DNA from: Candidatus Acidulodesulfobacterium ferriphilum
GTDB lineage: Bacteria > SZUA-79 > Acidulodesulfobacterales > Acidulodesulfobacteraceae
NCBI GenBank assembly: GCA_004195035.1
Contig: SGBD01000002.1
Coordinates: 186,001-250,000 of the forward strand
Direction: 5' to 3'
DNA: 64,000 nt
This document shows, in pieces, positions 405 to 14,989 of this stretch. Below the pieces are notes generated by a model that did no database searches, was not told the origin of the DNA, and saw only the letters and a list, made by a program, of their open reading frames with translations. The position numbers and the translations under genes are program-made. Position 1 is the stretch's first letter. Each line of letters begins with the position of its first letter.

Positions 405-965
405 TTAATGTTTCAATAATTTTCTGTAATAATCGTAATATTTATAAACCCGCATTATATATATTTCCGTTTGCCTGTAAGGCGGAATAATAAATTCTCT
501 GCGGTTTTTTGCATATATTATTTTAACAGAGCCTGGACCTGCATTATAGCATGCTAAAGCCGGAACCGGTTTATAGTCGAACATCGTCAGACAATAGCGC
601 AGGTATTTGGCGCCGGCAATTATATTTATCAAAGGATTAAAGGCATTTAAATTCATGGTTTTTGCCGTATTCGGCATAACCTGCATAAGTCCTACAGCCC
701 CTTCAGGGCTTACCGCGTTGATGTTAAAATTGCTTTCCGCCCTTATCACCGCAATAAGAAATAGAGCGGGTATTTTGTATTTATTCGATGCAAACATTAT
801 TGTTTTGTCAAATAACTTATAAGAAAATTTATATCCTTTTCGATGAAACCCAAACCCAAAGGAAACATAAGCCCGCGATATACAGTTTAAAAAAATAGTA
901 AACCAAAGCAATGCCGTAAATATCGATTTTTTTTCTAAAAAAAATCTAATTTTAAAATTTTCCAT
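405..965 (-). CDS. Lytic transglycosylase, VirB1-like, last gene of the T4SS operon
   Basis: The 186-residue protein has a hydrophobic N-terminal segment (about 15-30), so it is exported or anchored. It then carries a SLT/lysozyme-fold domain. The catalytic glutamate is E77 in IRAESNFN, followed by GAVGLMQVMP and the ALACYNAGPG motif typical of Slt family 1. The predicted role is to cleave peptidoglycan glycan strands so that an envelope machine can cross the wall. It starts at ATG 963-965, 18 bp after the preceding lipoprotein gene, and is the terminal gene of the type IV secretion run. This matches the VirB1 role. A free-standing housekeeping Slt is the alternative. Confidence 0.85.
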   Translation of the reverse strand: MENFKIRFFLEKKSIFTALLWFTIFLNCISRAYVSFGFGFHRKGYKFSYKLFDKTIMFASNKYKIPALFLIAVIRAESNFNINAVSPEGAVGLMQVMPNTAKTMNLNAFNPLINIIAGAKYLRYCLTMFDYKPVPALACYNAGPGSVKIIYAKNRREFIIPPYRQTEIYIMRVYKYYDYYRKLLKH

Positions 966-983
966 CGGGCGTTTAACGCAGGG

Positions 984-1673
984 TTAAAATTTATAAACTA
1001 ATTTATCAAGTTTATTATTGCTGCCGTCGTAATAATTTATGTAAGCGGCAAGCCTTATTTTCGATAAGTCCTCCCGCGCCAAAAATATCGTTTCGCAGGT
1101 AATTTTCTTTAAACCGCTCAAGGGCGTTTTATATTTCAGATTTGATTTAAAAGGCAATCCTCTGACCCCGCTTTTGGATTTTTTAAATAATTCTATCCGG
1201 CAGTTAACCGTTTTATCCGATAAATTTATTATGGAAAAATTTATTAATTCAAAAATTCCTTCTATTTGAACCGATTGAATCGTTAATTCAAATTTTCCAT
1301 TTTGACTTTTAATTATTTTACCGATGCTTATTTTGTAAATATTCAACATTTTATATTTTTTTAAAGATATGTTTGAATTTGAAATAAATGCGGGATGAAG
1401 CAAAGGTTTTAATTTTATGGAATGTTTATTTTGATTTTTTTTATTCTCCCCGCTTAATATATTTTTGATTTCATTACCCGGTATATTGTTTAATTTCAAA
1501 GAATCTCTCAAAACCTTTTTTTTCAATTTATCCGCGCCGTTGTAATGCCTTAAGCCAAAACCAGGAGGATTTTGAGCGCACCCGGACAGCAGGCAAATAA
1601 TTAATATATTACTTAATGAATATATTACTAAGTATTTATATTTATAAAGTTTATTTAATTTAATATATTTCAT
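984..1673 (-). CDS. Putative lipoprotein of the T4SS operon
   Basis: The 229-residue protein has a lipoprotein signal: a lysine-rich start, a hydrophobic stretch at about 14-30, then a lipobox LLSGC with the cysteine near residue 32. The mature part is Lys/Asn-rich and appears beta-rich in the second half. I do not recognise a family. Its position between the VirB9-like and VirB1-like genes (28 and 18 bp gaps) suggests an outer-membrane accessory role comparable to VirB7 or TrbH. It is much longer than classical VirB7 (about 50 residues), so this is inference from context only. Confidence 0.6.
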   Translation of the reverse strand: MKYIKLNKLYKYKYLVIYSLSNILIICLLSGCAQNPPGFGLRHYNGADKLKKKVLRDSLKLNNIPGNEIKNILSGENKKNQNKHSIKLKPLLHPAFISNSNISLKKYKMLNIYKISIGKIIKSQNGKFELTIQSVQIEGIFELINFSIINLSDKTVNCRIELFKKSKSGVRGLPFKSNLKYKTPLSGLKKITCETIFLAREDLSKIRLAAYINYYDGSNNKLDKLVYKF

Positions 1674-1701
1674 AGTTTATAATTTTTCCGCCCGTCAGTT
1701 T

Positions 1702-2694
1702 TTAATTATTTAATATATTATCTATCCTCAACTTAATGAGTTTTCCGTTAAGAATGGTATGGATGGATAATTTGAGATTATCTCCCGTTTTAATGTCAGG
1801 TTTTTTGAAAATAATCACATTTTTTACGATTTTATAAGGCATGTACTTAGCATTATGCGGAACATGGTTTACAATATATATCACTTTAAAAACATTTGAG
1901 TTATAACCGTTGAAAAAACTTCCGCCCTCTTCCCTGTATAGATATATATTCCTGATAAAAAACGGTTTATTGTTATCATTGGTTATCTGATATTCAAGAT
2001 AATAAATCGATTTTATATGGCTTATAGATATAACGGTCAATGTTATGCCGTCCTTTCCCGCCGTCTTGTTTATCTTTAATCTATTAACCAAAAGTATTAA
2101 ATTCATAACATCCTTCTTTTCTTTTTTCAGCTTAAGTCCTTTTTCGTTTAATATTGCAAACTTAGATTTATATTTTTGCAGTAAAGCCGTTTTTAATTTA
2201 TCGATTTTGCTTTCGATGTAATTAGAGGCAAAGACATTTTTTAATGTATTTGCGAGGTTAAGATTGTATGTAACGAGTTTAGCGTTTTTTATTCTTAAAA
2301 GTATATTTATAAGGCCGTATTTGGTAAATATTTCGAGATTGCTTGTCGTGCCGGCATCATATGTTATAGGTTTAATAAATATCTGCCTTCCCACGACCTG
2401 CTCCGAAAATGCCCCCGTATTGCCCACGGCAACATCCAACGGAATTGCAGGAAGCGTAATTACGCTGACATACCCTAAAGCCGTGTTAAGTTTATATATA
2501 ACCCCCGATTTTATCTCTAATTTATGTACTGAAGACCTGTTTTTGAAGCTGTATTTTTTAATATTCGAATAACTTGTGGCGTTTGCAATACCGATGCCGC
2601 GGGTAGAATAATTTAAAATAAACAATGGAAAAAGCGTTAACGCCGTTAAAAATAAACCTGTGATTTTAGATTTTTTATTCCTGTTTTTAACCAT
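1702..2694 (-). CDS. virB9: VirB9/TrbG-family T4SS protein
   Basis: The 330-residue protein has a signal peptide (basic N-terminus, hydrophobic about 14-38). The N-terminal domain reads LGYVSVITLPAIPLDVAVG, followed by QIFIKPITYDAGTTSNLEIF and TKYG. These are the hallmarks of the VirB9/TrbG/CagX N-terminal domain, where the chaperone-like segment docks VirB8/VirB10. The C-terminal half looks like the beta-sandwich that joins the outer-membrane core complex. The family role is to form the periplasmic and outer-membrane core ring with VirB7 and VirB10. It is unusual that it lies four genes away from virB10 rather than next to it. Confidence 0.8.
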   Translation of the reverse strand: MVKNRNKKSKITGLFLTALTLFPLFILNYSTRGIGIANATSYSNIKKYSFKNRSSVHKLEIKSGVIYKLNTALGYVSVITLPAIPLDVAVGNTGAFSEQVVGRQIFIKPITYDAGTTSNLEIFTKYGLINILLRIKNAKLVTYNLNLANTLKNVFASNYIESKIDKLKTALLQKYKSKFAILNEKGLKLKKEKKDVMNLILLVNRLKINKTAGKDGITLTVISISHIKSIYYLEYQITNDNNKPFFIRNIYLYREEGGSFFNGYNSNVFKVIYIVNHVPHNAKYMPYKIVKNVIIFKKPDIKTGDNLKLSIHTILNGKLIKLRIDNILNN

Positions 2695-2760
2695 ATTTAC
2701 CCCTTTTTACTATTTTTTCCTTCCGTGAAATCAATTTTTATTTCAAACGGGTTATTAAAA

Positions 2761-3099
2761 TTAATTCCCGTAAGCCCCGTTTCCGTCTCCATCCTTTTCT
2801 TTATATTTTTCTAATTTATTATGCATTTTAAGCTTTGAACCCGTAAGCCTTATCTCGAAAATTCGCACATATAGGCTGTGCGCTCCCGCGAAAAACATAA
2901 AAAAATTTGCGGCGTAAAGAATTACTACGACCGGATACCGCTTAAAAGAGTAACCGATAAACAGATAAAAAGAATTAACGAGATATTTAAAATCATGATC
3001 GGTAAAATAAAAAAGAACAAACAATCCGCTAAAAACAAGAAAAATTAATTCAAAAATATCGAGTTCATAACCGTATCCCGATCCATGCGTGTTTTTCAT
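2761..3099 (-). CDS. Small two-helix membrane protein in the T4SS operon, unknown
   Basis: I chose the ATG at 3097-3099 because GGTGTGGGG lies at ribosome-binding distance. An in-frame GTG at 3112-3114 would overlap that site. The product is about 112 residues with two hydrophobic segments (around residues 12-35 and 52-72) and a charged tail rich in Lys, Gly and Asp. No family is recognised. It lies 31 bp downstream of virD4 and 66 bp upstream of virB9, so it is probably co-transcribed. It may be an inner-membrane accessory of the coupling protein, which is inference only. Confidence 0.55.
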   Translation of the reverse strand: MKNTHGSGYGYELDIFELIFLVFSGLFVLFYFTDHDFKYLVNSFYLFIGYSFKRYPVVVILYAANFFMFFAGAHSLYVRIFEIRLTGSKLKMHNKLEKYKEKDGDGNGAYGN

Positions 3100-3129
3100 T
3101 TTTTTACCCCACACCTGTTAATTTTACAC

Positions 3130-4980
3130 TCATTGTTCGAAATAACTTTTTAATTTCGGTTTATAAATCGGATGAAGATAAACAATCCCGGGTCCCTTTA
3201 TCCCGCCTCCTGAATATATCCTGTAAATAGCCTGATTTAATTTTAAACCGGCAAAATCGTTCGTATCGAAAGAAGGCATTTTTTCATATGTCTTAGTCGT
3301 ACCCTGCGAAATAGTGTTATCTTCGGACAGGAGTCCGCCGACATACGGGTTGAATCTGGCTCCGTCATCCTGCTCCGTTATATTTTCCGTTATTTTTAAC
3401 TTATATTCCTTGTCGCATATCTTCGAAGCCTTTTCCCTCGAATAGTCGTCGCTTAATGAAAGCCATACGGAAGACCTTATATTGCCGAGCAGCGAATTAA
3501 GCCTTTCTTCCGACCCCAGTTTTAATTTTAAAGAACTGTAGCCCTGCGTAAGAACTATGTTTATCGCCTTCGATTGCCTGCATCTTGCAAAAAATTCCGC
3601 ATCCGATTCTATATCTCCCGATGTTACATAATTTTGATATTCGTCGCATATAAAAACTACCGGCCTTTTAATGTTAATGGCGCTATCCGCCGCCGAGTTA
3701 TAAACCCTGTTTAAAACCGTCCTGAAATAGTCAAGTTTAAGCATGATGCCGATTGCCTTTCCCGTTAAACCATATTTGGATTCGGGCATTCTTAAGATGA
3801 CTATTCTCCCGCTGTTTATCACATCCTGAAAGCCGGGAAAATTGAGTTTTTCTTCCGGCGGGCAGAATGTTTCCTTATACAGCGGTTTTATAAAATCGGA
3901 ACAAACCCTCATGGATTCGCTTTTTATTATCGCCTTTGTCCTTTCGTCGAGTCCGCGAAAATCTCCGCCCGTAAAATATGCCGCGGCAAGCCTTATTTCG
4001 TCTAAGGCGTTATAATCGTCATAATTTTCATAATAACCCCCGGCATTATCTTCGTTATCATCCTTTTCAGCCCTGCCGTTGTTTGAGCGCTTTTCTTTTG
4101 CGTTTATCAAATTGCCGGCATATTCGAGCATGTCTTTTAATTTTATTTCGTCCGCAATAATCTCATATATATCGCTCAATGTTACATAACCAAAGCACGA
4201 TCTTATTAAGCCGATAGAGTTTGCAAGCAGGTTAATAGATTTATCTTTCCAATAGCTGTCCTGTCTTCCGTCGTTTGAATTCATATTTTCTATAACCGAA
4301 TACAGCCTTTCGGCAATAACTTTAGCGTCCAGCCGCGGATAATGTACAGGATTAAAATAACAGCCGGAACCCGGCTCGATTACAATAATATCCCTTTGCC
4401 TGCCGTTCCTTTCGAGAATTCTTACCGCTTCCTTCCAAAAGTCTCCTTTTACATCGAGTATAAGCCCGCCGATTCTTTCGTCTTCCACCCATTTTTTGCA
4501 ATTTGCCAGCTGGTCGAAATACGGATATGCGCAGGCGGTTGTTTTACCCGTTCCAGTTGCCCCGAAAATAATCAGCCCGGTATAAAGACCGTTTTTATCC
4601 ATAATAAGCCAGTCGGGCTTTTCTTTTCTGCTTCCGTCTCTATTATGAATTTCCCCTATCACAAGTTTGAAATCACCTTCTTCCGGCCATGCCGGTTCAA
4701 ATTTTTTTGAAAATTTTTTAACATTTTTATTTCTATTTTCCGGCTTGAGATATAAATATTTGTTATAAAGCATATTCGAAAATGTATAAGCCGAGATAAA
4801 CCATGTTGTTACCGGCGTTAAAATAAAAAAGAGCCTGACATATTTAAAATAATCAAAATAATAAACTATGCTTTTGTCCGAAAAAAAAATTGAAATTATG
4901 AAAATATAAAACAGCTCAAATCCCCATATTAAAAGGGATACGCCAATTTTTACAATCAATCCGCTATTGTTTTTCTTCAA
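3130..4980 (-). CDS. virD4: VirD4/TraG-type coupling protein ATPase
   Basis: The 616-residue protein has two N-terminal membrane segments (about 10-30 and 48-70), then a RecA/FtsK-like ATPase domain. The Walker A motif is GATGTGKTTACAYP near residue 140. The Walker B region is VFICDEYQNYV, followed by the FFARCRQSKAINIVLTQG segment. This is the arrangement of type IV coupling proteins, which bring substrate to the secretion channel. The start is a TTG overlapping the end of the MoxR gene by 17 bp, indicating translational coupling. No relaxase lies nearby, so the substrate (DNA or protein) is unknown. Confidence 0.9.
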   Translation of the reverse strand: MKKNNSGLIVKIGVSLLIWGFELFYIFIISIFFSDKSIVYYFDYFKYVRLFFILTPVTTWFISAYTFSNMLYNKYLYLKPENRNKNVKKFSKKFEPAWPEEGDFKLVIGEIHNRDGSRKEKPDWLIMDKNGLYTGLIIFGATGTGKTTACAYPYFDQLANCKKWVEDERIGGLILDVKGDFWKEAVRILERNGRQRDIIVIEPGSGCYFNPVHYPRLDAKVIAERLYSVIENMNSNDGRQDSYWKDKSINLLANSIGLIRSCFGYVTLSDIYEIIADEIKLKDMLEYAGNLINAKEKRSNNGRAEKDDNEDNAGGYYENYDDYNALDEIRLAAAYFTGGDFRGLDERTKAIIKSESMRVCSDFIKPLYKETFCPPEEKLNFPGFQDVINSGRIVILRMPESKYGLTGKAIGIMLKLDYFRTVLNRVYNSAADSAINIKRPVVFICDEYQNYVTSGDIESDAEFFARCRQSKAINIVLTQGYSSLKLKLGSEERLNSLLGNIRSSVWLSLSDDYSREKASKICDKEYKLKITENITEQDDGARFNPYVGGLLSEDNTISQGTTKTYEKMPSFDTNDFAGLKLNQAIYRIYSGGGIKGPGIVYLHPIYKPKLKSYFEQ

Positions 4981-5890
4981 ATCGCTGCGCCGTTACCCTT
5001 TTAATAATATTTTTTACCGCCCTGATATCCGAATAATATGTCCACAAAGAAGATTCCAGAATCTTAATGTCTTCGGTCTTAACAAAATCTCTCCCGTTTA
5101 AAAAGGCATTAACCTTTATTATTCTAACCACTTCTTTCCACCGCCTGTCAGAAACGATAACCTGTTTGTTTTTTAGCTCTTCCCTTATTTCATATAAGAC
5201 ATTAAAAATTTCATCCGAAAAATAGACGCTGCAGGAGGCATGAGTTAAAAGATTTATATCGTCAAGGTTTAACTTTATATTTTGAAAATTGTAATCGCCT
5301 TGTATTTCCAGTAATTTCTTAAAATTGCCCTTTTCATTTATCGGCAGTATTTCCTTGCGAAATAAAAACCTGTCATAGAGCGGTAAAAGATTTGAATTTG
5401 ATGATTTATCGGGCTTTTCGTTCGAGGTTGCAAAAAGGCTTATTAAAGGAATTTTACGCGGTTCGGGCGCATATATTATTCTTTCGTTCATAATGGCAAG
5501 AAGCGAGTTTAGCGTGGAATGCGGCCCCTTAAAAAATTCGTCTATCAAGGCTATATCACAGTTGTCGATGCCTCTTTTATTTTTAGTATTTTTAGATAAA
5601 AGATCATTTACATCCGCCGCCGGCGTCATCTGAAAATCGAACAGCTTAAGGCCGCGCACATGTTTTGCCAGCGCTTTTAATATCGCGGTTTTGGCAAGCC
5701 CCGGCTCCCCTATCAATATCGAATGTTTTTTCGATATAATAGCCGATATAATAATATCTACCGCCTCCTTTCTTTCTAAAAACTGCGAATTAAGGCAGTT
5801 TTTAATTCCGTCAAGCTTTTTCATAATTAGTTCTATTTTCCCGTTATTATTGCCCGTCCCGTCCTGTATCAATTGCTCCGCCTCCGCCAA
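4964..5890 (-). CDS. MoxR/RavA-type AAA+ ATPase inside the T4SS operon
   Basis: The 308-residue protein carries a AAA+ module: Walker A GEPGLAKT at 61-68, Walker B ALIDEF at about 114-119, sensor 1 SLFATSNE at 151-158, an arginine-finger-like LYDRFLFR at about 171-178, and SDRRW in the lid. These features fit the MoxR group, nearest RavA. MoxR ATPases usually act as chaperones with a VWA-domain partner, but none is encoded here. The gene is 4 bp after virB10 and overlaps virD4, the place where virB11 usually lies. The TTG start at 5890 has no obvious ribosome site, and a later TTG at about 5870 behind GGCGGAG is possible. Confidence 0.85.
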   Translation of the reverse strand: MAEAEQLIQDGTGNNNGKIELIMKKLDGIKNCLNSQFLERKEAVDIIISAIISKKHSILIGEPGLAKTAILKALAKHVRGLKLFDFQMTPAADVNDLLSKNTKNKRGIDNCDIALIDEFFKGPHSTLNSLLAIMNERIIYAPEPRKIPLISLFATSNEKPDKSSNSNLLPLYDRFLFRKEILPINEKGNFKKLLEIQGDYNFQNIKLNLDDINLLTHASCSVYFSDEIFNVLYEIREELKNKQVIVSDRRWKEVVRIIKVNAFLNGRDFVKTEDIKILESSLWTYYSDIRAVKNIIKRVTAQRFEEKQ

Positions 5891-5894
5891 TTTT

Positions 5895-7109
5895 TTATTT
5901 TATATATGCAGGCTTAAGAAACATTATCTTTATCGGCGTATCTTTCGGGAGCGTTATACTGATGTTTTGATTTGAATTAGCATAGTTATTTATCCCGTTT
6001 TGAGCCTGATTCAGCTCATTTTGAGCCACGTTTTCCCTTATCTGATTTTGAAATGTATAAGGGTTTGAGGAATTTATTCCCGAACCTCCTCCTATAAAAA
6101 TAGATGCCGCAGAGGCAATACCCTGCGCCGCCGATGCAAGAATATTTCCGGCGTAACGATAATGCACATCCCCCTTTATTCCCCCTGAGCCGTCCGGCAT
6201 CATTGCAGCGGCATCTATATCGACCCTGTGTCCGCTTTTTTTAATAATTTCATTAAACAAAATATTCAGCCTGTTCAACGAATGTTTAACGCTTACCGTT
6301 CCAAAGAATTCATCCCCTTTTTCCAATGCCGCCTTCCCCTGATAATAGAAGGTGTTTGACAATATTGCTATAATCGGAACTTCCGTATTATAGGAAAATA
6401 CCTTGTATTTTATGTAGGCGCTTACGACCGTTCCCTGCGGGATAACAACGCTTTTATTACGGCTGTTATTATCACTGTTTTGTTTTGACGGCGCGGGCTT
6501 ATAATCCGCCGCTTTAACGGAATGCCCGCCTTCGTTTATTCCTCTTTCCCTCTCTAAAATGCCTTTACCGTAGCTTGCCTTAATAAAAACAATCATCTTT
6601 TTGTTTATTTGAGGCATAGTGCGAAGCGTATTTTGATATGCGCTATTTTGCCTGTAAATGCCGTTATTCTTTGAATTTTTATTGAATTTAATATTCCCGT
6701 TTAGCTTTTTCATTTCTTTATTAAATTTAGCATTAAACTTAGCCGGCTTTTCCGGCGTAGCCGTTTTACCGCCCTTTCCTCCGGCATAATTAAAAACGGA
6801 TGGAGAAAATCTTTTTTCGTCTTTTATCGTTTTATTTTTATAAAGGTTAAGAATCCGTTTCTTATCTTTGCTTATATTTTTGCCTGATTTATGAAAAAAT
6901 AAAAATTTTAGCGCTAAAATTATAGCTATCAAAAAAACTACGGCAACAAGCGGAAGTTTAAAAAATTTTAAAAAATCTTTATTTGAAAACTTATTCTTTT
7001 CCGCTATGCCTGAATTGTAAATATCCGGCGCAGCAGGGTCGGTTTGCTCCAAATCTTCTTCTCTTACGACATGGGGATTATTTTTATCTATTTTATTTAT
7101 TTTATCCAT
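5895..7109 (-). CDS. virB10: VirB10/TrbI-family T4SS scaffold protein
   Basis: The 404-residue protein has a cytoplasmic N-terminus of about 47 residues, one membrane helix (about 47-70), and a long Lys/Asn-rich linker. From about residue 215 comes the C-terminal beta domain, with VIPQGTVVSAYIKYKVFSYN, GDEFFGTVSVKHSLNRLNI and a hydrophobic, Ala/Gly-rich antenna-like segment (SAAQGIASAASIFIGGG). VirB10 spans from the inner membrane to the outer-membrane pore and senses ATPase activity. The linker is Lys/Asn-rich rather than proline-rich. It lies 6 bp after virB8 and 4 bp before the MoxR gene. Confidence 0.88.
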   Translation of the reverse strand: MDKINKIDKNNPHVVREEDLEQTDPAAPDIYNSGIAEKNKFSNKDFLKFFKLPLVAVVFLIAIILALKFLFFHKSGKNISKDKKRILNLYKNKTIKDEKRFSPSVFNYAGGKGGKTATPEKPAKFNAKFNKEMKKLNGNIKFNKNSKNNGIYRQNSAYQNTLRTMPQINKKMIVFIKASYGKGILERERGINEGGHSVKAADYKPAPSKQNSDNNSRNKSVVIPQGTVVSAYIKYKVFSYNTEVPIIAILSNTFYYQGKAALEKGDEFFGTVSVKHSLNRLNILFNEIIKKSGHRVDIDAAAMMPDGSGGIKGDVHYRYAGNILASAAQGIASAASIFIGGGSGINSSNPYTFQNQIRENVAQNELNQAQNGINNYANSNQNISITLPKDTPIKIMFLKPAYIK

Positions 7110-7115
7110 GCAGGA

Positions 7116-7778
7116 TCAGGCGCCTCCCAGTTTTAAACTGCTGAAATAAACTACTTCCAGTCCAAAAGGATATTGCACGCTTCTTTTTACCCTTTTAAGT
7201 ATTAATTTATCTTCGTATGCCGCATTGTTTTTAATATTAGAATCGTTATCGGAAATAACCGTCCTGACGATATAAAGTTTTAACTCGTCATGATTAACCG
7301 TCTGCCTTATTAGCTTTATCTTTTTAAATTTGATTACGGATGTGATGCCTGCTTTTTCCATTTTTTGAATAAAGCCGTTTTTCACAATCATTTTAAGGGT
7401 TTTTTCTCCATAGCCGGGCGACATCTTATTTAACGCTCTCGAAAGTTCGGTTTTTATCATTAATGAATTAAAACCCGTAAATTCCTTTATAAAGCTTTTG
7501 GAAAAATATACTATTTCACCCATGCCGACTCTGTTATTAAAGGGTAAATTTCTTAAAACCCTTGCATTTCCGGTGCTGTTAACCCTGATGACTATCGGAA
7601 CCCTATTTATTTTATATGTGTAAAAAGATGTAAAAAGCGCAGCTATTAAAATTAAAGACATTAGAAGTATTACAACCTTAAGCGCGGCGTTTTGAGATTC
7701 CAGATCGCCCCAAATCTCATAGAAAAGCCTGCTATTTCTCTTTTTGATATCGTCTTTTGAATTTAAAAGATTTCCCAT
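7116..7778 (-). CDS. virB8: VirB8/TrbF-like T4SS inner-membrane protein
   Basis: The 220-residue protein has a cytoplasmic N-terminus, one membrane helix (about 32-54), and a periplasmic domain of the NTF2-like size seen in VirB8. The segment before the helix (YEIWGDLESQNAALKVVILL) and the one after it (INRVPIVIRVNSTGNA) fit VirB8/TrbF/TraE relatives. The family role is a platform that nucleates assembly and contacts VirB9, VirB10 and VirB5. Sequence resemblance is modest, so the call also leans on its place between virB6 and virB10. Confidence 0.75.
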   Translation of the reverse strand: MGNLLNSKDDIKKRNSRLFYEIWGDLESQNAALKVVILLMSLILIAALFTSFYTYKINRVPIVIRVNSTGNARVLRNLPFNNRVGMGEIVYFSKSFIKEFTGFNSLMIKTELSRALNKMSPGYGEKTLKMIVKNGFIQKMEKAGITSVIKFKKIKLIRQTVNHDELKLYIVRTVISDNDSNIKNNAAYEDKLILKRVKRSVQYPFGLEVVYFSSLKLGGA

Positions 7779-7828
7779 ATCGCCCTATTTTAATAATTAT
7801 TTTAAAATTTCTAAATTATCCGGGCTTA

Positions 7829-8986
7829 TCATCTAATTCTAAAATTTCCCGTTTTAACGGCTATACTTTTAAACGGTTTTGATATTGCTTGAATTCTTTC
7901 ATGCGCGTCATTGCTTATACCCTCGAATAATTTTCCTATAAAATACGGAACGGTAACATTGATAAGAATCATTACGATAAAAATAGTTACGGCCTCGGCA
8001 AATGTAAAAACTCCGAGTATATTACCCATTCCGGTTTCGGAAGACGGAATATTAATCGATACGATTTTTCCTAATACGGTAAAAAATATAAGCTGTTCCA
8101 ATGCAACCATAACTCCCCAAAATGAAATTTCGATAAACATTTTCATCCATTTTCCAAAGATACCTCTTGTGTACGGTATGGTTTCAAACCCGAGAATAAT
8201 CGGGCATATGGAAAATAATAACCCCAGAAGTATCAGCTGAACGAATGCCATAATCAACTGTATAATTAAATAAAAAAGATTAAATAAAAACCACAATATT
8301 CCCATAAGTATAGTTCCAGTTATTGCGTGAACCGCGCCTGCAAACCACGACACCGGGTTTAAATTCCAGCCGCTCTTAGCGGAAGCGGTTCCATTCGACG
8401 ATACGGTTGGGATCGATACATTGTGAAGACTGCCCGAAATGGAAGAAACGATTTGCGAAACCGATTCGCCTATGTTATATACATTTTGTTTTAAAAGATA
8501 AATCTGGAGCCTGTCCGCAAGGGTTAAAATTATCTGGGCAAAGTTTGAAAAACCGGTCTGTTTCCATGACAAAAAGGCTGCGGCGATAAGTCCCGTTCTT
8601 AAAAACAAGCCGTAATAACTGAAAGACTTATCCGTTAACTCCGACCTGTAGCCTTCAAAAAAGGACAGCACAATCCCCAGAGCAAACAGAAAATAAAACA
8701 TGTAAGACATAAAACTGCTCATTGTAGAATTACTGTCAAGCGCCGGCGGGATAGAATCTATCGAAAGTATGTTAAAGTCCTGTCCGTTGCTCAGTTTAGA
8801 TATGGATAGGGACGATTCATTTATATCCGAACCTGCGCTTGCGGAATTTACGCTGCCCGTTGACGGTGTCGGCACGGGAGCCGGCGCGGCCATCGCAAGC
8901 CCTGCCTTGTATAAAACAAAATTAGTAACGATAATTACAGAGATTATAACCGTCAAATATGATAAAATCTTCCCCATTCTATTCAT
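7829..8986 (-). CDS. virB6: VirB6/TrbL-like polytopic T4SS protein
   Basis: The 385-residue protein begins with a signal-like helix (about 8-32). It then has several membrane spans at about 87-108, 125-145, 215-265 and 325-350, with a small-residue-rich loop after the first. The region WFLFNLFYLIIQLIMAFVQL and the following glycine-containing spans look like the TrbL/VirB6 conserved block. VirB6 forms part of the inner-membrane channel. A 324-bp gap containing a palindromic repeat separates it from the upstream virB5-like gene. It is 50 bp before virB8. Confidence 0.75.
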   Translation of the reverse strand: MNRMGKILSYLTVIISVIIVTNFVLYKAGLAMAAPAPVPTPSTGSVNSASAGSDINESSLSISKLSNGQDFNILSIDSIPPALDSNSTMSSFMSYMFYFLFALGIVLSFFEGYRSELTDKSFSYYGLFLRTGLIAAAFLSWKQTGFSNFAQIILTLADRLQIYLLKQNVYNIGESVSQIVSSISGSLHNVSIPTVSSNGTASAKSGWNLNPVSWFAGAVHAITGTILMGILWFLFNLFYLIIQLIMAFVQLILLGLLFSICPIILGFETIPYTRGIFGKWMKMFIEISFWGVMVALEQLIFFTVLGKIVSINIPSSETGMGNILGVFTFAEAVTIFIVMILINVTVPYFIGKLFEGISNDAHERIQAISKPFKSIAVKTGNFRIR

Positions 8987-9310
8987 TCTATTCTCCTGCG
9001 CATCCCGTGTTTATGTGTTTAATTGGGCATACATTAATTAAAAAAATTCCCGAAAATATCCCTCTAACCCCGCAACCATCGGAACAATATAGCATAAGAT
9101 AAGAATGGTGAGGCTAAGCCTGATATAACTCTAAATTGCCGATAGAAATTTATTTTTCTGGATTCCCGCTTTCGCGGGAATGACTTTGAGGGATTTTAAA
9201 AGTTCACCCGTTGGGTGTCATTCCCGCGAAAGCGGGAATCCAGTGTTCTTAATGCATTGCAATATGTTTAACAATCTCTATCGGCAATTTTTGGATATAA
9301 ACGGTAATAA
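8987..9310. other. Intergenic gap within the T4SS operon, holding a repeat element
   Basis: This 324-bp stretch between the virB5-like and virB6-like genes has no supported reading frame. About half of it is one palindromic element (9133-9290). The rest is AT-rich and shows no convincing promoter. The element's hairpins could affect read-through of the operon. Confidence 0.6.
9133..9290. repeat. Palindromic element copy A, end type TTGCCGATAGA
   Basis: The element has terminal inverted repeats (AAATTGCCGATAGA on the left, TCTATCGGCAATTT on the right). Inside lie two facing hairpins of the form GGATTCCCGCTTTCGCGGGA and its counterpart, separated by a spacer with CACCCGTTGGGTG. The interior nearly matches copies at 22024, 32173 and 42588, but the terminal sequence differs from all of them. 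It encodes no protein and has the size and form of a MITE or palindromic intergenic repeat. It sits between virB5 and virB6. Confidence 0.8.
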
Positions 9311-10420
9311 TCACAGCGTCGTTTTGTTATAAAAATTCATACCGGGAATATTATTGCTTTGAGGTAAAATAATTGCCCCTACATGCTCTTTTTTAATCTC
9401 GCTTGCCGATTTGGACAATTCCATCTGTTTTAACTGGCTCTCGATATATCCGAGGTTTTTTAAATTTGCGGCGTCTTCCTCCGCTATTAAGGTTAAAACT
9501 GAACTCTGATACGAGTAATAATTACTGCTGTTATTTAATGCCCCGCTTGTTATTTCATTCATGAATCCATCCCCTTCAAGCTCTGCTTTGTGAGCCCTTG
9601 CGGCAGAAACGCCCGCATTATAAAGATTTGAAGATGCCGCATCAATCACAAATCCGTTTACCGGATCAGTGCATCCAGCCGTGTAATTTCCTTTACCGTC
9701 AAAATAATAGCCGTTGTCGTAGGAAGCGCAATTTACCGCCGGATTAATGTTTCCGCTGTTTCCGTCGGCATTATAAACAGCTCCGCCTGTAAACTGCCGC
9801 GATTCGTTTTTAAGACTGCTTCTATTTAATACTCCCGTGCCGGGCATAGAAGCGCCGGAAATAAAATCCTGAGGGCTATAGGAACCGCTTTCGTTATTAA
9901 GATTTTGAAATTCCGACTCTTCTATATTAATATCGGAAACCAGATTTTGGGGCGAAGAGGCATAAACATCGCTTTGCGTTAACTCCTGCGGAATCCGGGC
10001 AAAAGCATTATTTATTTGATTGTTCAAATTATTAACATTATTTACGGCATTTTCGACCGAATTAACCAAATGCCCCAATTTATCATAATTAATTATGATA
10101 TTTTGATACTGCTCCTGCATTTTTGACACATCCGCCGTCAACTTATCTGCGGTTGCCATTGCCTCTGACAGGCCGGGCCCCGGATTAAAAAGCGGTCCGC
10201 CGGAGGCTCCGGGGGCATAACCGAGCGTTCCCGCAAGACCCTGCAAAGCCGAAAAAGCGCCGCCTGCCGAAGTCTCGACGGACTGAATCTGGGCGGAAAC
10301 AGCGCCGATGTCCGGCAGCGGAAGCCCTATTCCGTAAGCCACCCCTAAGTATAAGGTCGTAGCCGTTATGAAAGGAATTAAAACTTTTGAATAAAAAACA
10401 TATTTTTTATTTTTTTGCAT
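9311..10420 (-). CDS. VirB5/TrbJ-like T4SS protein
   Basis: The 369-residue protein has an N-terminal signal (about 12-32). A helical, coiled-coil-prone stretch rich in Asn and Gln lies around residues 85-145 (YDKLGHLVNSVENAVNNVNN). A low-complexity Ser/Asn/Gly middle follows, then a helical C-terminal part. This layout and its position after virB4 fit the TrbJ/VirB5 group of minor pilus or adhesin subunits. A signal-peptidase-type site appears after about residue 30. The gap to virB4 is 39 bp. The family call is moderate because VirB5 sequences diverge fast. Confidence 0.65.
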   Translation of the reverse strand: MQKNKKYVFYSKVLIPFITATTLYLGVAYGIGLPLPDIGAVSAQIQSVETSAGGAFSALQGLAGTLGYAPGASGGPLFNPGPGLSEAMATADKLTADVSKMQEQYQNIIINYDKLGHLVNSVENAVNNVNNLNNQINNAFARIPQELTQSDVYASSPQNLVSDINIEESEFQNLNNESGSYSPQDFISGASMPGTGVLNRSSLKNESRQFTGGAVYNADGNSGNINPAVNCASYDNGYYFDGKGNYTAGCTDPVNGFVIDAASSNLYNAGVSAARAHKAELEGDGFMNEITSGALNNSSNYYSYQSSVLTLIAEEDAANLKNLGYIESQLKQMELSKSASEIKKEHVGAIILPQSNNIPGMNFYNKTTL

Positions 10421-10459
10421 AATTTGCTTTTACTGTGTTAACCTTGTTAAATTTGTAAA

Positions 10460-13096
10460 TTATTGCCGAATTTCCGCCTTCTTAGCAGGGGACAGATTTA
10501 AATCTGTCCCCTTTGCATTTTTATCGTCAACCCTTATTCCGTAAGGGCCGTTTGGATAACTTTCTGCCAGTATATAAAGTCTTTCTTTTAGGGATTTATC
10601 GGGATATGCTGCCATGATTTGCCGTTCTATCTCTTCATCGTCGGAGGATTTACAGCACAGCCAGTATTCGAAAGGATCAGGCTTATTCCTGATTACGGCC
10701 GAATCATGCCCGAATTTTAAAAAATATTCGGCATAATGCCCCTTTACGACCTTAAGATTTTTTACAATTTCTATCTCTTTTTCATTGAGTCCGCAAAATT
10801 TTAAATCGTTCCCATCCACATCGCCGTCCAATTGGCAAAATATTTTAACGGTGGAATTTTCTATTATACTTTTACCGACATTTCCCGCTTTTAAAATGTC
10901 CCCAGGCTCCTGGGTTACGCTCCACACCATAGACCCCCATTTGGCCGATGTCTTATAAAGATGCATTATAAGCTCCGCTATTTTAGGGTCATTCATAAAT
11001 TCCCAGCATTCGTCGTAAAAGAAAAAAACCTTAGCCGATTTGTCGTACATTTTTTTAAACGAAATATTTTTTATTATCGCAAATACCACTTTTTGCAGGT
11101 CTTCATGCCCTTTTAATTTTTGCAAATCGAATATAATTATCTTTTTACCGGCATCTATTCCCCCCTTCCTGTTTAAAATTATGCTGTAGGGCGAAGATAT
11201 ATCTGTCCATTGAAATAGATTTTTCCCCATTTCCATTGCTCTTTTTTTATCCTCTATGTCTCTTCCTTCGTTGTAATCGAATAACACGTTATTAATGTCC
11301 GAAATTACCGGCATATCGCCGTCATCGTTTATTCTGTCGTATGACGCCTGAATCGCCCTTGCTATAATAGTTTTATCGTTGGGCGATAAATTTCTCTCAG
11401 GTTCGACCATTAAACCGATTATACCCGTTAAAAATATCATAATGTCCGGGTCAAAAACTTCCTCGTTATTTACAATTTTAATTATATGCCGCTTTGGCGG
11501 AAATGGATTTAAACAATATGTTCCGTCCAAATCCAGCTCGATGTATTCCCCGTTAAATATTCTGCAAAACTTGCTATATGTTCCTCCTATGTCAACCCCT
11601 ACAATATGGTAATTTTCTCCCGACATATAAAAGTTAGTTAAAAATCCATTAAGCATAAATCCCTTTCCGCTCCTTGTTTTACCAAAGACGATTCCGTGTT
11701 TTGCAGGCAGTGCGTTGTTGCATAAATCGATGCTTACGGCTTCCCCGCTTGTGTTAATTAGCGGTATTGCGCAGGTTTTTGTTCCGCCGAAACTCTTATG
11801 CAAGGGGAAAAAGGCGGAAACGGCAGGCGAAATAGATGTTTTAAACCGCCGGTTAAAGCGCGTTTGGGAGGGAAGGAACGATAAAAATAGATTATGGTGT
11901 TCCATGTCATCCGTAATTCCTTCCATTCCGTTAAAATCTTTAAATGCTTCCAAAATTTTTATAGCCCTCGAATCCAGATCGGAGGCAGTTTTAGATTTAA
12001 GCCTAACACACAAGGATATATTGACAGCCTTCTTTTGCATTTTCGAAACGGATTTAAGAAAATCGTCCAATTGCGCCGTAATGCCGCCGCCTTTATAATC
12101 TATATATCCTCCGCCGACGGCCTCGGTCAAGCTTGCTTTAATATTTCTATCGGATTGAATTTTATTAATCGTCTTTTCCTGGTCCGGTATGTTAAAGGCA
12201 ATCTGGATATCGTACGGAAAAAAGTCAAGGATACCTGAATTTTCGATATTTAACAAAGGGGTTATGCCGTAAGCATCTATTTTACTTGGTAATCTATGCA
12301 TATTTATAAACTTATAATAATAACCGTCTATATAAAAATAATCCCTTTTTATTTCACCGCAAGAATACATTAATTGGCTCCTGAATGTGAATTCGCGGGA
12401 CATATTTTCCCATTTTGGGGGACCTACGAAAATAGACCTTTCAGGATTTAATTCTTTATAGTAATAATCGGTTAATTCCTGATTATTCATTCTTTTTAGT
12501 CCGATATTCAGCCTCGAAGCCAAAAAACTTAAATTATTTTCCACATTATCCAATTTTTTACGGACGGCATCGAAATCATTTTTAGCGTTAAGCCTTGAAT
12601 TAGAATTATTAATATCTCCAATCGTTATTTTGAATAAACTTGAATTAAAATTGATAAAATTCGATAAAAACCCGTCTTTTCCCGATAACTCCAAATTTGT
12701 ATTATTTATTGTGCAAAAAAGATATATTTTAATATTTTTTATGCTTTTCGCCCTGAGAACCTTAAGTTTATTTTCTTTAATATATTCATAATCTTTTGGC
12801 GGAATAGAAGATATTTGATAATTCGATATAAATTCATCATTTCTGTCGTCTATTTTATAAATCCACTGCAAGCCGATATTTTCATCCAAAAGATTTAGAA
12901 GAAGGTCGTTAACATATGCCGTATCGTTGATTATCTCATCTTTGGAAAGAATATAATCAAACCCTTTAACTATAAAACCGACAGTAAAAGAACCGTCAAT
13001 ACCGATAATGATATTCTCATAAATCGTTAAAAGATTAAGATAATTATTAAACGATTCATTTTGATTCCTTCTTTTTAATACGGATTTGAGCATCAT
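10460..13096 (-). CDS. virB4: VirB4/TraC-type T4SS ATPase
   Basis: The 878-residue protein has a Walker A motif GIVFGKTRSGKGFMLNGF near residue 470 and a Walker B KVFFFYDECWEFM near residue 690. The motif-rich C-terminal RecA-like half follows a long N-terminal VirB4 domain. VirB4 is the universal T4SS ATPase, driving pilus biogenesis and substrate transfer at the inner membrane. It overlaps the virB3-like gene by 41 bp at its start. Near the C-terminus the reading frame runs through a 26-bp perfect palindrome (10487-10512, coding GTDLNLSP), which looks like an inserted repeat that replaced or extended the original tail. Confidence 0.92.
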   Translation of the reverse strand: MMLKSVLKRRNQNESFNNYLNLLTIYENIIIGIDGSFTVGFIVKGFDYILSKDEIINDTAYVNDLLLNLLDENIGLQWIYKIDDRNDEFISNYQISSIPPKDYEYIKENKLKVLRAKSIKNIKIYLFCTINNTNLELSGKDGFLSNFINFNSSLFKITIGDINNSNSRLNAKNDFDAVRKKLDNVENNLSFLASRLNIGLKRMNNQELTDYYYKELNPERSIFVGPPKWENMSREFTFRSQLMYSCGEIKRDYFYIDGYYYKFINMHRLPSKIDAYGITPLLNIENSGILDFFPYDIQIAFNIPDQEKTINKIQSDRNIKASLTEAVGGGYIDYKGGGITAQLDDFLKSVSKMQKKAVNISLCVRLKSKTASDLDSRAIKILEAFKDFNGMEGITDDMEHHNLFLSFLPSQTRFNRRFKTSISPAVSAFFPLHKSFGGTKTCAIPLINTSGEAVSIDLCNNALPAKHGIVFGKTRSGKGFMLNGFLTNFYMSGENYHIVGVDIGGTYSKFCRIFNGEYIELDLDGTYCLNPFPPKRHIIKIVNNEEVFDPDIMIFLTGIIGLMVEPERNLSPNDKTIIARAIQASYDRINDDGDMPVISDINNVLFDYNEGRDIEDKKRAMEMGKNLFQWTDISSPYSIILNRKGGIDAGKKIIIFDLQKLKGHEDLQKVVFAIIKNISFKKMYDKSAKVFFFYDECWEFMNDPKIAELIMHLYKTSAKWGSMVWSVTQEPGDILKAGNVGKSIIENSTVKIFCQLDGDVDGNDLKFCGLNEKEIEIVKNLKVVKGHYAEYFLKFGHDSAVIRNKPDPFEYWLCCKSSDDEEIERQIMAAYPDKSLKERLYILAESYPNGPYGIRVDDKNAKGTDLNLSPAKKAEIRQ
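10487..10512. repeat. Perfect 26-bp palindrome of GGGGACAGATTT type inside the virB4 3' end
   Basis: AGGGGACAGATTT is followed directly by its exact reverse complement, inside coding sequence and in frame. A degenerate relative occurs at 49165-49188. Sequences of this GGGGACAG/CTGTCCCC form are recurrent intergenic repeats in several delta-proteobacterial genomes, so this is likely a repeat insertion. Confidence 0.75.
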
Positions 13097-13427
13097 TTTT
13101 ATCTTTATAAATTAAATAAATTAAATTTAAAAAAGGGGCATCTAATTTATCGCTCCCCGGTTCCAAAATAAATAGCTCCTTTTTAATTAATATAAACGAC
13201 AAAAGCGAACTTGTATAAAAATCTGGTTTGCCGTTTTTATACTTTCTTAAAAAAATTAAGATAAGCATATCGATTAATATTGCAAGAATAATAAACTCTT
13301 TAAATGCAAGAATCAGTATCATCGTAATAAAAATAAATAGTCCCCAATCGTATATTTCCAAGCCAAACCTTGTAACCCTGTCGTGAATTCCCCTGTGAAT
13401 TTTAAATCTTGTATAACCTGTTTTCAT
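13056..13427 (-). CDS. virB3: VirB3/TrbD-like T4SS protein
   Basis: The 123-residue protein has a basic N-terminus with the sequence RFKIHRGIHDRVTRFGLEIY. A long hydrophobic region that could form two membrane helices follows (about 28-62), then a short soluble tail. This size, topology and the placement directly before and overlapping virB4 are those of VirB3, an inner-membrane partner of VirB4. Sequence recognition is moderate, but context is strong. Confidence 0.75.
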   Translation of the reverse strand: MKTGYTRFKIHRGIHDRVTRFGLEIYDWGLFIFITMILILAFKEFIILAILIDMLILIFLRKYKNGKPDFYTSSLLSFILIKKELFILEPGSDKLDAPFLNLIYLIYKDKNDAQIRIKKKESK

Positions 13428-13467
13428 ATACCCCTCGCGGCAACATTACTTAAGCGCCTGTCATGAA

Positions 13468-13995
13468 TCATGGCTGGCCTACCGTAGTCGAGCCGTTTCC
13501 GCTGCCCATATTGATGCCGTTTGCCGAACCTCCAGCGCTTTGAACGATACCTAATATTGCGCCCGTTATGGTCGGCGCAAGCATCACCCCCGTTCCTGCC
13601 GCCGCCGTTATAAACGCCTTCCTTGCCGCATCCGGCTTATGCTGTTTTATATCGTAAAATCCCTTTACAAGGCCGATGGTAAGGGTTGCAGGAGCAAGCC
13701 TGTAGCATATCCATGTTGTCGCCTCGTTTAAAATGCCCGATGCCCCGATCCCAAGCGAACCCTGATTTAAATTAATCATTGCTAACGCCCTCGAACTTAA
13801 GGATAAAATCGACCCAAAAACAAAAGAAGACAAAAACAAAATACTCTTTGATCTGCCCCTGCCCCATTTCATCCCTAATTTTAGCCTGCCCTTCGTGAAT
13901 TTTTCTTCATAAATTTCCGATTGGAGACGAGCCATTATCATAATGGAATAATCATTGAAACAATTAATGTAATTAATGACATTTTTAAACCTCAT
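13468..13995 (-). CDS. virB2: VirB2/TrbC-like pilin
   Basis: The 175-residue product has a long N-terminal leader ending in a hydrophobic segment (about 52-70, FLSSFVFGSILSLSSRALA) that looks like a signal sequence with an ALA cleavage site. A compact mature part of about 105 residues with two hydrophobic helices (about 90-105 and 130-150) follows, ending in a Gly/Ser-rich tail. That is the plan of VirB2/TrbC pilins. It is the first gene of the T4SS operon, has a GGAGGG ribosome site, and lies 40 bp before virB3. The leader is longer than usual, so the true start may be internal. Confidence 0.7.
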   Translation of the reverse strand: MRFKNVINYINCFNDYSIMIMARLQSEIYEEKFTKGRLKLGMKWGRGRSKSILFLSSFVFGSILSLSSRALAMINLNQGSLGIGASGILNEATTWICYRLAPATLTIGLVKGFYDIKQHKPDAARKAFITAAAGTGVMLAPTITGAILGIVQSAGGSANGINMGSGNGSTTVGQP

Positions 13996-14373: not shown

Positions 14374-14625
14374 ATGGACGGAAAAAAACGGTCAAAAACA
14401 AAAGAAAAAAGGTTAAGAAATCGCGTAAAACACAAAAGCTATCAAGAGTTTATCGATGAAATCGCCGAGAGATTAAAAGAAAAAAAAGAGATTGAAGAGT
14501 TGTTTAAACGTGTTATAATATTAAAAGCGGATGATGTATTAAAGGAAATGGAGATAAAGGAAAAAAATAATGAAATTTTAACGGGACTGCATAATGAAAG
14601 AAAAGAGGACAAATTTGACGGGTAG
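14374..14625 (+). CDS. Small highly charged protein, divergent from the T4SS operon
   Basis: The 83-residue protein is very basic at the N-terminus (KKRSKTKEKRLRNRVKHKSY) and has a predicted helix after it (QEFIDEIAERLKEKKEIEEL). An AAAGGGGAG ribosome site lies 8-10 bp before the ATG. No known family is recognised. A basic N-terminus plus coiled-coil helix and divergent placement would suit a DNA-binding or regulatory protein of the secretion operon, but that is inference. Its 3' end overlaps the next gene by 32 bp. Confidence 0.6.
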   Translation: MDGKKRSKTKEKRLRNRVKHKSYQEFIDEIAERLKEKKEIEELFKRVIILKADDVLKEMEIKEKNNEILTGLHNERKEDKFDG

Positions 14626-14989
14626 CCATAGCCGCCAAAATATACAAAATATAGAAGATATTTTTAATAACCTGAAAGATTACATAGATAAAATAAAAGA
14701 TAACGCAATTGCTTCAGGCAAAAAAGAAGACGCTTCAAGTTCATTATCGTTTACCGGCATGATATTTGACGAAATATCCAATTCGTTAAAAAAGGGCGGT
14801 TTAACCGATATAAACGAGTTAACGGAGGATCTCGACAACAACATTAAAATAATGCTTAACGGCCTTAATTCGTTTAAATCCGAAAAAATAGTCGCGGAAA
14901 GGCTTGACGGCCTCGCCGCGTACTGCGATAAAGTGTTTATGGAATTAATGGCGGGTATTTCCTGTGCTATACCCGCAAAAAATAATTAA
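14594..14989 (+). CDS. Small helical protein, partner of the preceding gene
   Basis: The 131-residue protein is predicted to be mostly helical and soluble, with no signal peptide or membrane segment. It has alternating charged helices (NIEDIFNNLKDYIDKIKDNA, ELTEDLDNNIKIML). Cysteines appear only near the end. It overlaps the preceding gene by 32 bp, so the two are probably translated together. No family is recognised. Possibilities are a secretion substrate, a chaperone or a regulatory partner; the sequence does not decide. Confidence 0.55.
   Translation: MKEKRTNLTGSHSRQNIQNIEDIFNNLKDYIDKIKDNAIASGKKEDASSSLSFTGMIFDEISNSLKKGGLTDINELTEDLDNNIKIMLNGLNSFKSEKIVAERLDGLAAYCDKVFMELMAGISCAIPAKNN

Follow-up and report, generated by a model that had tools for sequence, protein, structure and literature searches.

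The energetics of type IV secretion systems (T4SSs) are described with three ATPases, VirB4, VirB11 and VirD4. The stretch of DNA analysed here, called the window, comprises 64,000 nucleotides of the genome of Candidatus Acidulodesulfobacterium ferriphilum (1.87 Mb in 7 contigs) and carries a T4SS operon in which a gene for a MoxR-type AAA+ ATPase, moxR, lies between virB10 and virD4. A reading made from the DNA alone (hereafter the sequence-only reading) had this ATPase occupy the slot of a missing VirB11 and replace it. Does MoxR stand in for VirB11, serve the coupling protein, sit in the operon by happenstance, or belong to the machine in a capacity of its own? The organism is a member of the Acidulodesulfobacterales, an uncultured order of acid, sulfur-rich settings that include acid mines. 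The words secretion, type IV and pili are absent from the paper describing the order (PMC6776010), the titles and abstracts found on MoxR with T4SS, VirB4 or conjugative contain no report of a T4SS-linked MoxR, and a 2025 review of T4SS nomenclature does not contain the word MoxR.

According to the ORF list and family searches, thirteen tightly packed ORFs on the minus strand (405–13995) form a chromosomal T4SS operon. Family searches name VirB4 (10460–13096), a VirB6/TrbL-like protein (7829–8986), VirB10 (5895–7109; TrbI, Pfam 1e-14) and the VirD4 coupling ATPase (3130–4980; T4SS-DNA_transf 1e-6, CD1115 family 5e-17), all of which pass or reach their Pfam cut-offs, as well as a VirB1-like lytic transglycosylase (405–965); since a single operon encodes homologues of VirB4, VirB10, VirB6 and VirD4, the locus qualifies as a T4SS. 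The sequence-only reading had also counted VirB2, VirB3, VirB8 and VirB9 as recognisable, but these assignments are weak or based on position. The VirB3-like protein (13056–13427) falls below the Pfam cut-off (E=0.02), and VirB2, B5, B7, B8 and B9 are assigned from position, with no informative Pfam match for the proteins taken as VirB2, VirB5, VirB8 and VirB9. They are a VirB2-like putative pilin (13468–13995) with no family match, a protein in the VirB5 position (9311–10420), a lipoprotein in the VirB7 position (984–1673) with a lipobox-like LLSGC, a VirB8-like protein (7116–7778) with faint added support from weak fold matches to VirB8, obtained with a low-confidence model (pLDDT 41) that is uninformative alone, and a VirB9-like protein (1702–2694) whose profile matches TrwF (E=0.0012). 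A small membrane protein (2761–3114) is kept beside virD4 in loci of this arrangement, referred to below as type i.

The moxR ORF (4964–5890, minus strand) is open over 308 codons from a TTG start, with a gap of 4 bp to virB10 and an overlap of 17 bp with virD4; both values hinge on predicted TTG starts, whereas the adjacency does not. Pfam matches (bpMoxR 6e-23, AAA_lid_8 3e-20, AAA_5 3e-13) and a MoxR-type AAA+ core with Walker A and B, sensors and lid place the product in the MoxR/RavA family. The closest solved structure is E. coli RavA (PDB 3nbx), which has the same AAA+ core, AAA_lid_8 and all the catalytic residues and is the best PDB match both by sequence (1.4e-48, with MoxR as profile) and by fold (2e-13, from a predicted model with pLDDT 73). 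MoxR is however not a RavA proper: it scores 115.9 bits (2.6e-33) against an NCBIfam RavA equivalog cut-off of 681 and, being AAA+ core and lid only, lacks the RavA C-terminal region. The T4SS-linked MoxRs further differ from E. coli RavA in their length (about 300 residues versus 498), in lying in a T4SS operon without a VWA/ViaA partner, and in having a Phe after Walker B. This residue (Phe119) follows the Walker B DE in 34 of 34 T4SS-linked MoxRs, while the position is Ile or Val in 57 of 57 others. Invariant in the same 34 proteins are G61 and K67 (Walker A), D117 and E118 (Walker B), the sensor-1 residue N157, R174/R178 and R249/R250. Family, profile and residue data thus bear out what the sequence-only reading had said of the gene itself, namely a RavA-like MoxR with intact Walker A, Walker B and sensor motifs between virB10 and virD4 of a 13-gene T4SS operon. 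The gene is under purifying selection, with a dN/dS of 0.13–0.16, close to that of its neighbours, in a codon comparison with two relatives. No other MoxR is encoded elsewhere in the genome. In two relatives (G023 and G028), MoxR has large insertions that bring it to 361–367 aa, the frame staying open (L058:7075-8178, L059:7057-8142).

The absence of VirB11, claimed for the operon, extends to the genome (97% complete), in which a T2SSE-family search found none. Of the T2SSE-family ATPases, four give strong matches (two are PilB, two PilT), and two weaker matches, to ORFs of 930 and 779 aa, lie below the cut-off. A VirB11 hidden elsewhere in the genome, for which ComB11 of H. pylori provides the comparison case (PMC13395361), was rejected since all four strong ATPases are PilB or PilT. 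MoxR is not itself a member of the VirB11 family: no T2SSE (PF00437) match is among those listed for it at E up to 1, and it does not have the T2SSE/VirB11 fold and motifs. It shares with VirB11/TrbB the class of cytoplasmic ring ATPase and a gene near virB10, but the two are not homologous at family level. VirB11/TrbB-like proteins were found in 6 of 30 genomes of the family (G003, G010, G013, G015, G024 and G029). Their genes are on other contigs, in loci without MoxR, and those that were read are Trb-like; the G003 locus has TrbB and TrbE matches, and a relaxase match shares the contig of VirB11/TrbB in G010, G013 and G029. As counter-evidence to the association of MoxR with a VirB11-less machine they were therefore rejected. 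A co-encoded VWA-domain partner, usual but not universal in the MoxR/RavA family, is also lacking as had been claimed, the genome having no VWA_CoxE or VWA_2 protein and none of the 30 genomes a VWA_CoxE above the cut-off.

How far the arrangement is conserved was read from relatives that are all metagenome-assembled genomes or public records. The order virB10-moxR-virD4 is found in 23 of 23 readable type i loci, window included, over 6 genera, and no readable operon of this kind lacks moxR. Both refuting conditions set by the sequence-only reading, a co-occurring VirB11 gene elsewhere in the genome and a related operon without moxR, were thus checked and did not refute it. The Acidulodesulfobacterales as an order conserve this arrangement, and since it is kept over 6 genera and dN/dS is low, the position of moxR is not due to chance. 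In several genera, the type i operon occupies a conserved chromosomal site, flanked on one side by thiS/thiG/thiH-like genes and a gene for a DUF4852 protein and on the opposite side by two small ORFs; in the window the latter are the divergent ORFs of 83 and 131 aa at 14374–14989 (plus strand), a pair that accompanies the operon in several genera. Because the site is conserved and chromosomal and the genome has no match to the relaxase family searched (PF03432), the type i machine is perhaps not a conjugation system. The DUF4852 protein, apparently secreted, is a neighbour of the type i operon across many genomes (L187:19101-19859) and may belong to the system.

Two further arrangements carry moxR. 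In type ii loci (L057, L060-L063), the order is virB10-moxR-virB9 in 5 of 5 and virD4 is not in the fetched stretch of the operon. Type iii loci (L064-L069) are elements with ParA/ParB and integrase-like genes, in which the order is virB6-transglycosylase-moxR and the coupling-protein gene lies away from moxR. In a further difference from RavA, about 11 residues ahead of Walker B are missing from the MoxRs of types i and ii. Among the 30 family genomes, 27 have a VirB4 of the kind that goes with T4SS-linked MoxR and 26 match the MoxR profile; the presence of the two agrees in 29 genomes, three of which (G001, G027 and G029) have neither, and in the one genome with VirB4 only (G024) the contig stops just past virB6. 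The order also has F-type systems, recognised by TraC/TraB/TraH/TraG matches; they are distinct from the MoxR-bearing ones, have no MoxR and occupy a different branch of the VirB4 tree. In L060 and G022, the type ii T4SS genes are continued without a break by pilus-type genes, among them those for a secretin and a PilB-like ATPase (L060:13339-18426, L188), which hints at a joint T4SS-pilus locus.

Phylogenies of the two ATPases agree. In the VirB4 tree, types i, ii and iii form one clade (SH-aLRT 99) with the order ((i,ii),iii), and the MoxR tree has the same order, the T4SS-linked MoxRs forming one clade with support (82/94) that is moderate, in a tree where long branches meet. Judged from these trees, MoxR has been co-inherited with VirB4 through the three T4SS types. 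The best match of the window VirB4 is to TraC of F-type (MPF_F) systems (TIGR02746, 6.5e-59), at 199.6 bits against an equivalog cut-off of 567, and VirB11 is absent as in the F system (PMC12857230). The window operon differs from F-type systems in its minimal, VirB-like gene set: TraU, TraW, TraN, TraF and TraH were not among the NCBIfam matches of 10 operon proteins, although divergent forms are possible. No MoxR is encoded in the stretches read around the nearest outside VirB4 relatives, two Myxococcus plasmids and G061 among them. In a VirB4 search of 386 genomes, which may miss rare T4SS-MoxR loci in other phyla, the 12 outside stretches fetched are all without MoxR, and 7 of the 9 outside genomes or records tested have no VirB11 at E 1e-20; G061 and G233 have VirB11-family matches on contigs other than that of VirB4. 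Since the nearest outside relatives have no MoxR near VirB4 and most lack VirB11, the absence of VirB11 most likely predates MoxR, which would have been added later in the Acidulodesulfobacterales. On the Myxococcus plasmids, a Ser/Thr protein kinase gene follows the T4SS genes (L193:20086-22527, L194:20837-23212). T4SS-linked MoxRs were also sought on plasmids, and the six regions examined turned out to hold ordinary MoxR/RavA proteins with VWA, DUF6744 or unrelated neighbours. A contig titled as a Klebsiella pneumoniae MAG (L138) bears a Binatota-like MoxR, the record being probably mis-binned.

These results bear on the idea of replacement. VirB11 has been located beneath VirB4, with which it is described as driving the extraction of pilin (PMC12624023), and a MoxR hexamer could likewise dock under the central VirB4 hexamer and power pilin extraction or the switch between pilus and transfer. 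The two ATPases would be on the same subcellular side and belong to the same hexameric class, VirB11 is absent from the genome, the catalytic residues of MoxR are invariant, and moxR follows virB10 as virB11 often does; moreover, the type ii operon holds MoxR without virD4, which argues that MoxR goes with VirB4 and the core. The fold class is however different (RavA-type AAA+ versus PilT/VirB11-like), and F-type systems work without any VirB11 (PMC12857230, PMC12624023). Since such systems do not need VirB11, and VirB11-less sister systems do without MoxR, there is no vacancy for MoxR to fill. With a TraC/F-like VirB4 and outside relatives that mostly lack both proteins, replacement is not supported; a VirB11-like role of MoxR I consider unlikely, though it is the most serious of the alternatives. 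The occupied virB11 slot is a positional resemblance: it holds in type i, where moxR follows virB10, and fails in type iii, where moxR comes after virB6 and the transglycosylase. If MoxR had taken over the job of VirB11, two unrelated ATPase families would serve one station of the machine.

A partnership of MoxR with VirD4, in which MoxR would unfold or release the substrate, would account for the overlap or close adjacency of moxR and virD4 in many type i loci, but is improbable in view of type ii, where MoxR occurs but the stretch fetched contains no virD4, and of type iii, where it accompanies virB6 and virB1-like genes with the coupling-protein gene elsewhere. A general MoxR chaperone gene carried along by happenstance is strongly disfavoured: many bacteria have MoxR genes and the link to the machine is one of sequence, but moxR recurs in three T4SS types of different gene order, one of them mobile, is missing where the corresponding VirB4 is missing, has no VWA partner and encodes the clade-wide Phe119.

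The reading I favour is that MoxR probably serves a TraC/F-like T4SS family devoid of VirB11, as a dedicated subunit or as an assembly factor, and was added to the machine instead of being exchanged for one of its parts. MoxR proteins act like chaperones in the maturation of large complexes, in most cases together with a VWA cofactor, and GvpN, CbbQ and NorQ are MoxR ATPases tied to the assembly or activation of large complexes other than T4SSs (PMC3893208); the MoxR/GvpN proteins of archaeal type IV pili, also not T4SSs, are paired with a VWA gene (PMC4858521). A precedent for an added factor is a type II secretion (T2SS) operon of Dadabacteria, which keeps its own GspE motor and has as its last gene a MoxR of the same superfamily. 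In the T4SS, MoxR would form a cytoplasmic ring acting at the base of the inner-membrane complex, on VirB4 with the cytoplasmic tails of VirB10 and VirB8, and would use ATP to remodel this complex during assembly, activation or pilin loading. By analogy with the way in which MoxR proteins work with large membrane complexes, the T4SS itself may provide the partner, a part played in other systems by VWA proteins. MoxR would thus have joined a machine already without VirB11. Conserved operon order is not proof of a physical association of MoxR with the T4SS.

With a fourth family of ATPase fixed and co-inherited in a lineage that lacks VirB11, the gene set of the machine is shown to be open to a further ring ATPase. 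The order provides natural with/without sets, namely systems with MoxR, Trb-like systems with VirB11 and F-type systems with neither, which allow testing what the extra ATPase does and bear on how F-like machines manage without VirB11. The range of probable MoxR clients also widens to secretion machines, and T2SS operons are worth the same check. In Dadabacteria and relatives, a gene for a 383-aa MoxR directly follows the T2SS pseudopilin genes, with no VWA gene beside it; in L130 (L130:1187-11176) the operon has its own GspE and GspF, and the MoxR gene is likewise placed in L122, L126, L127, L129, L132, L134-L136, L139, L140, L143 and L148.
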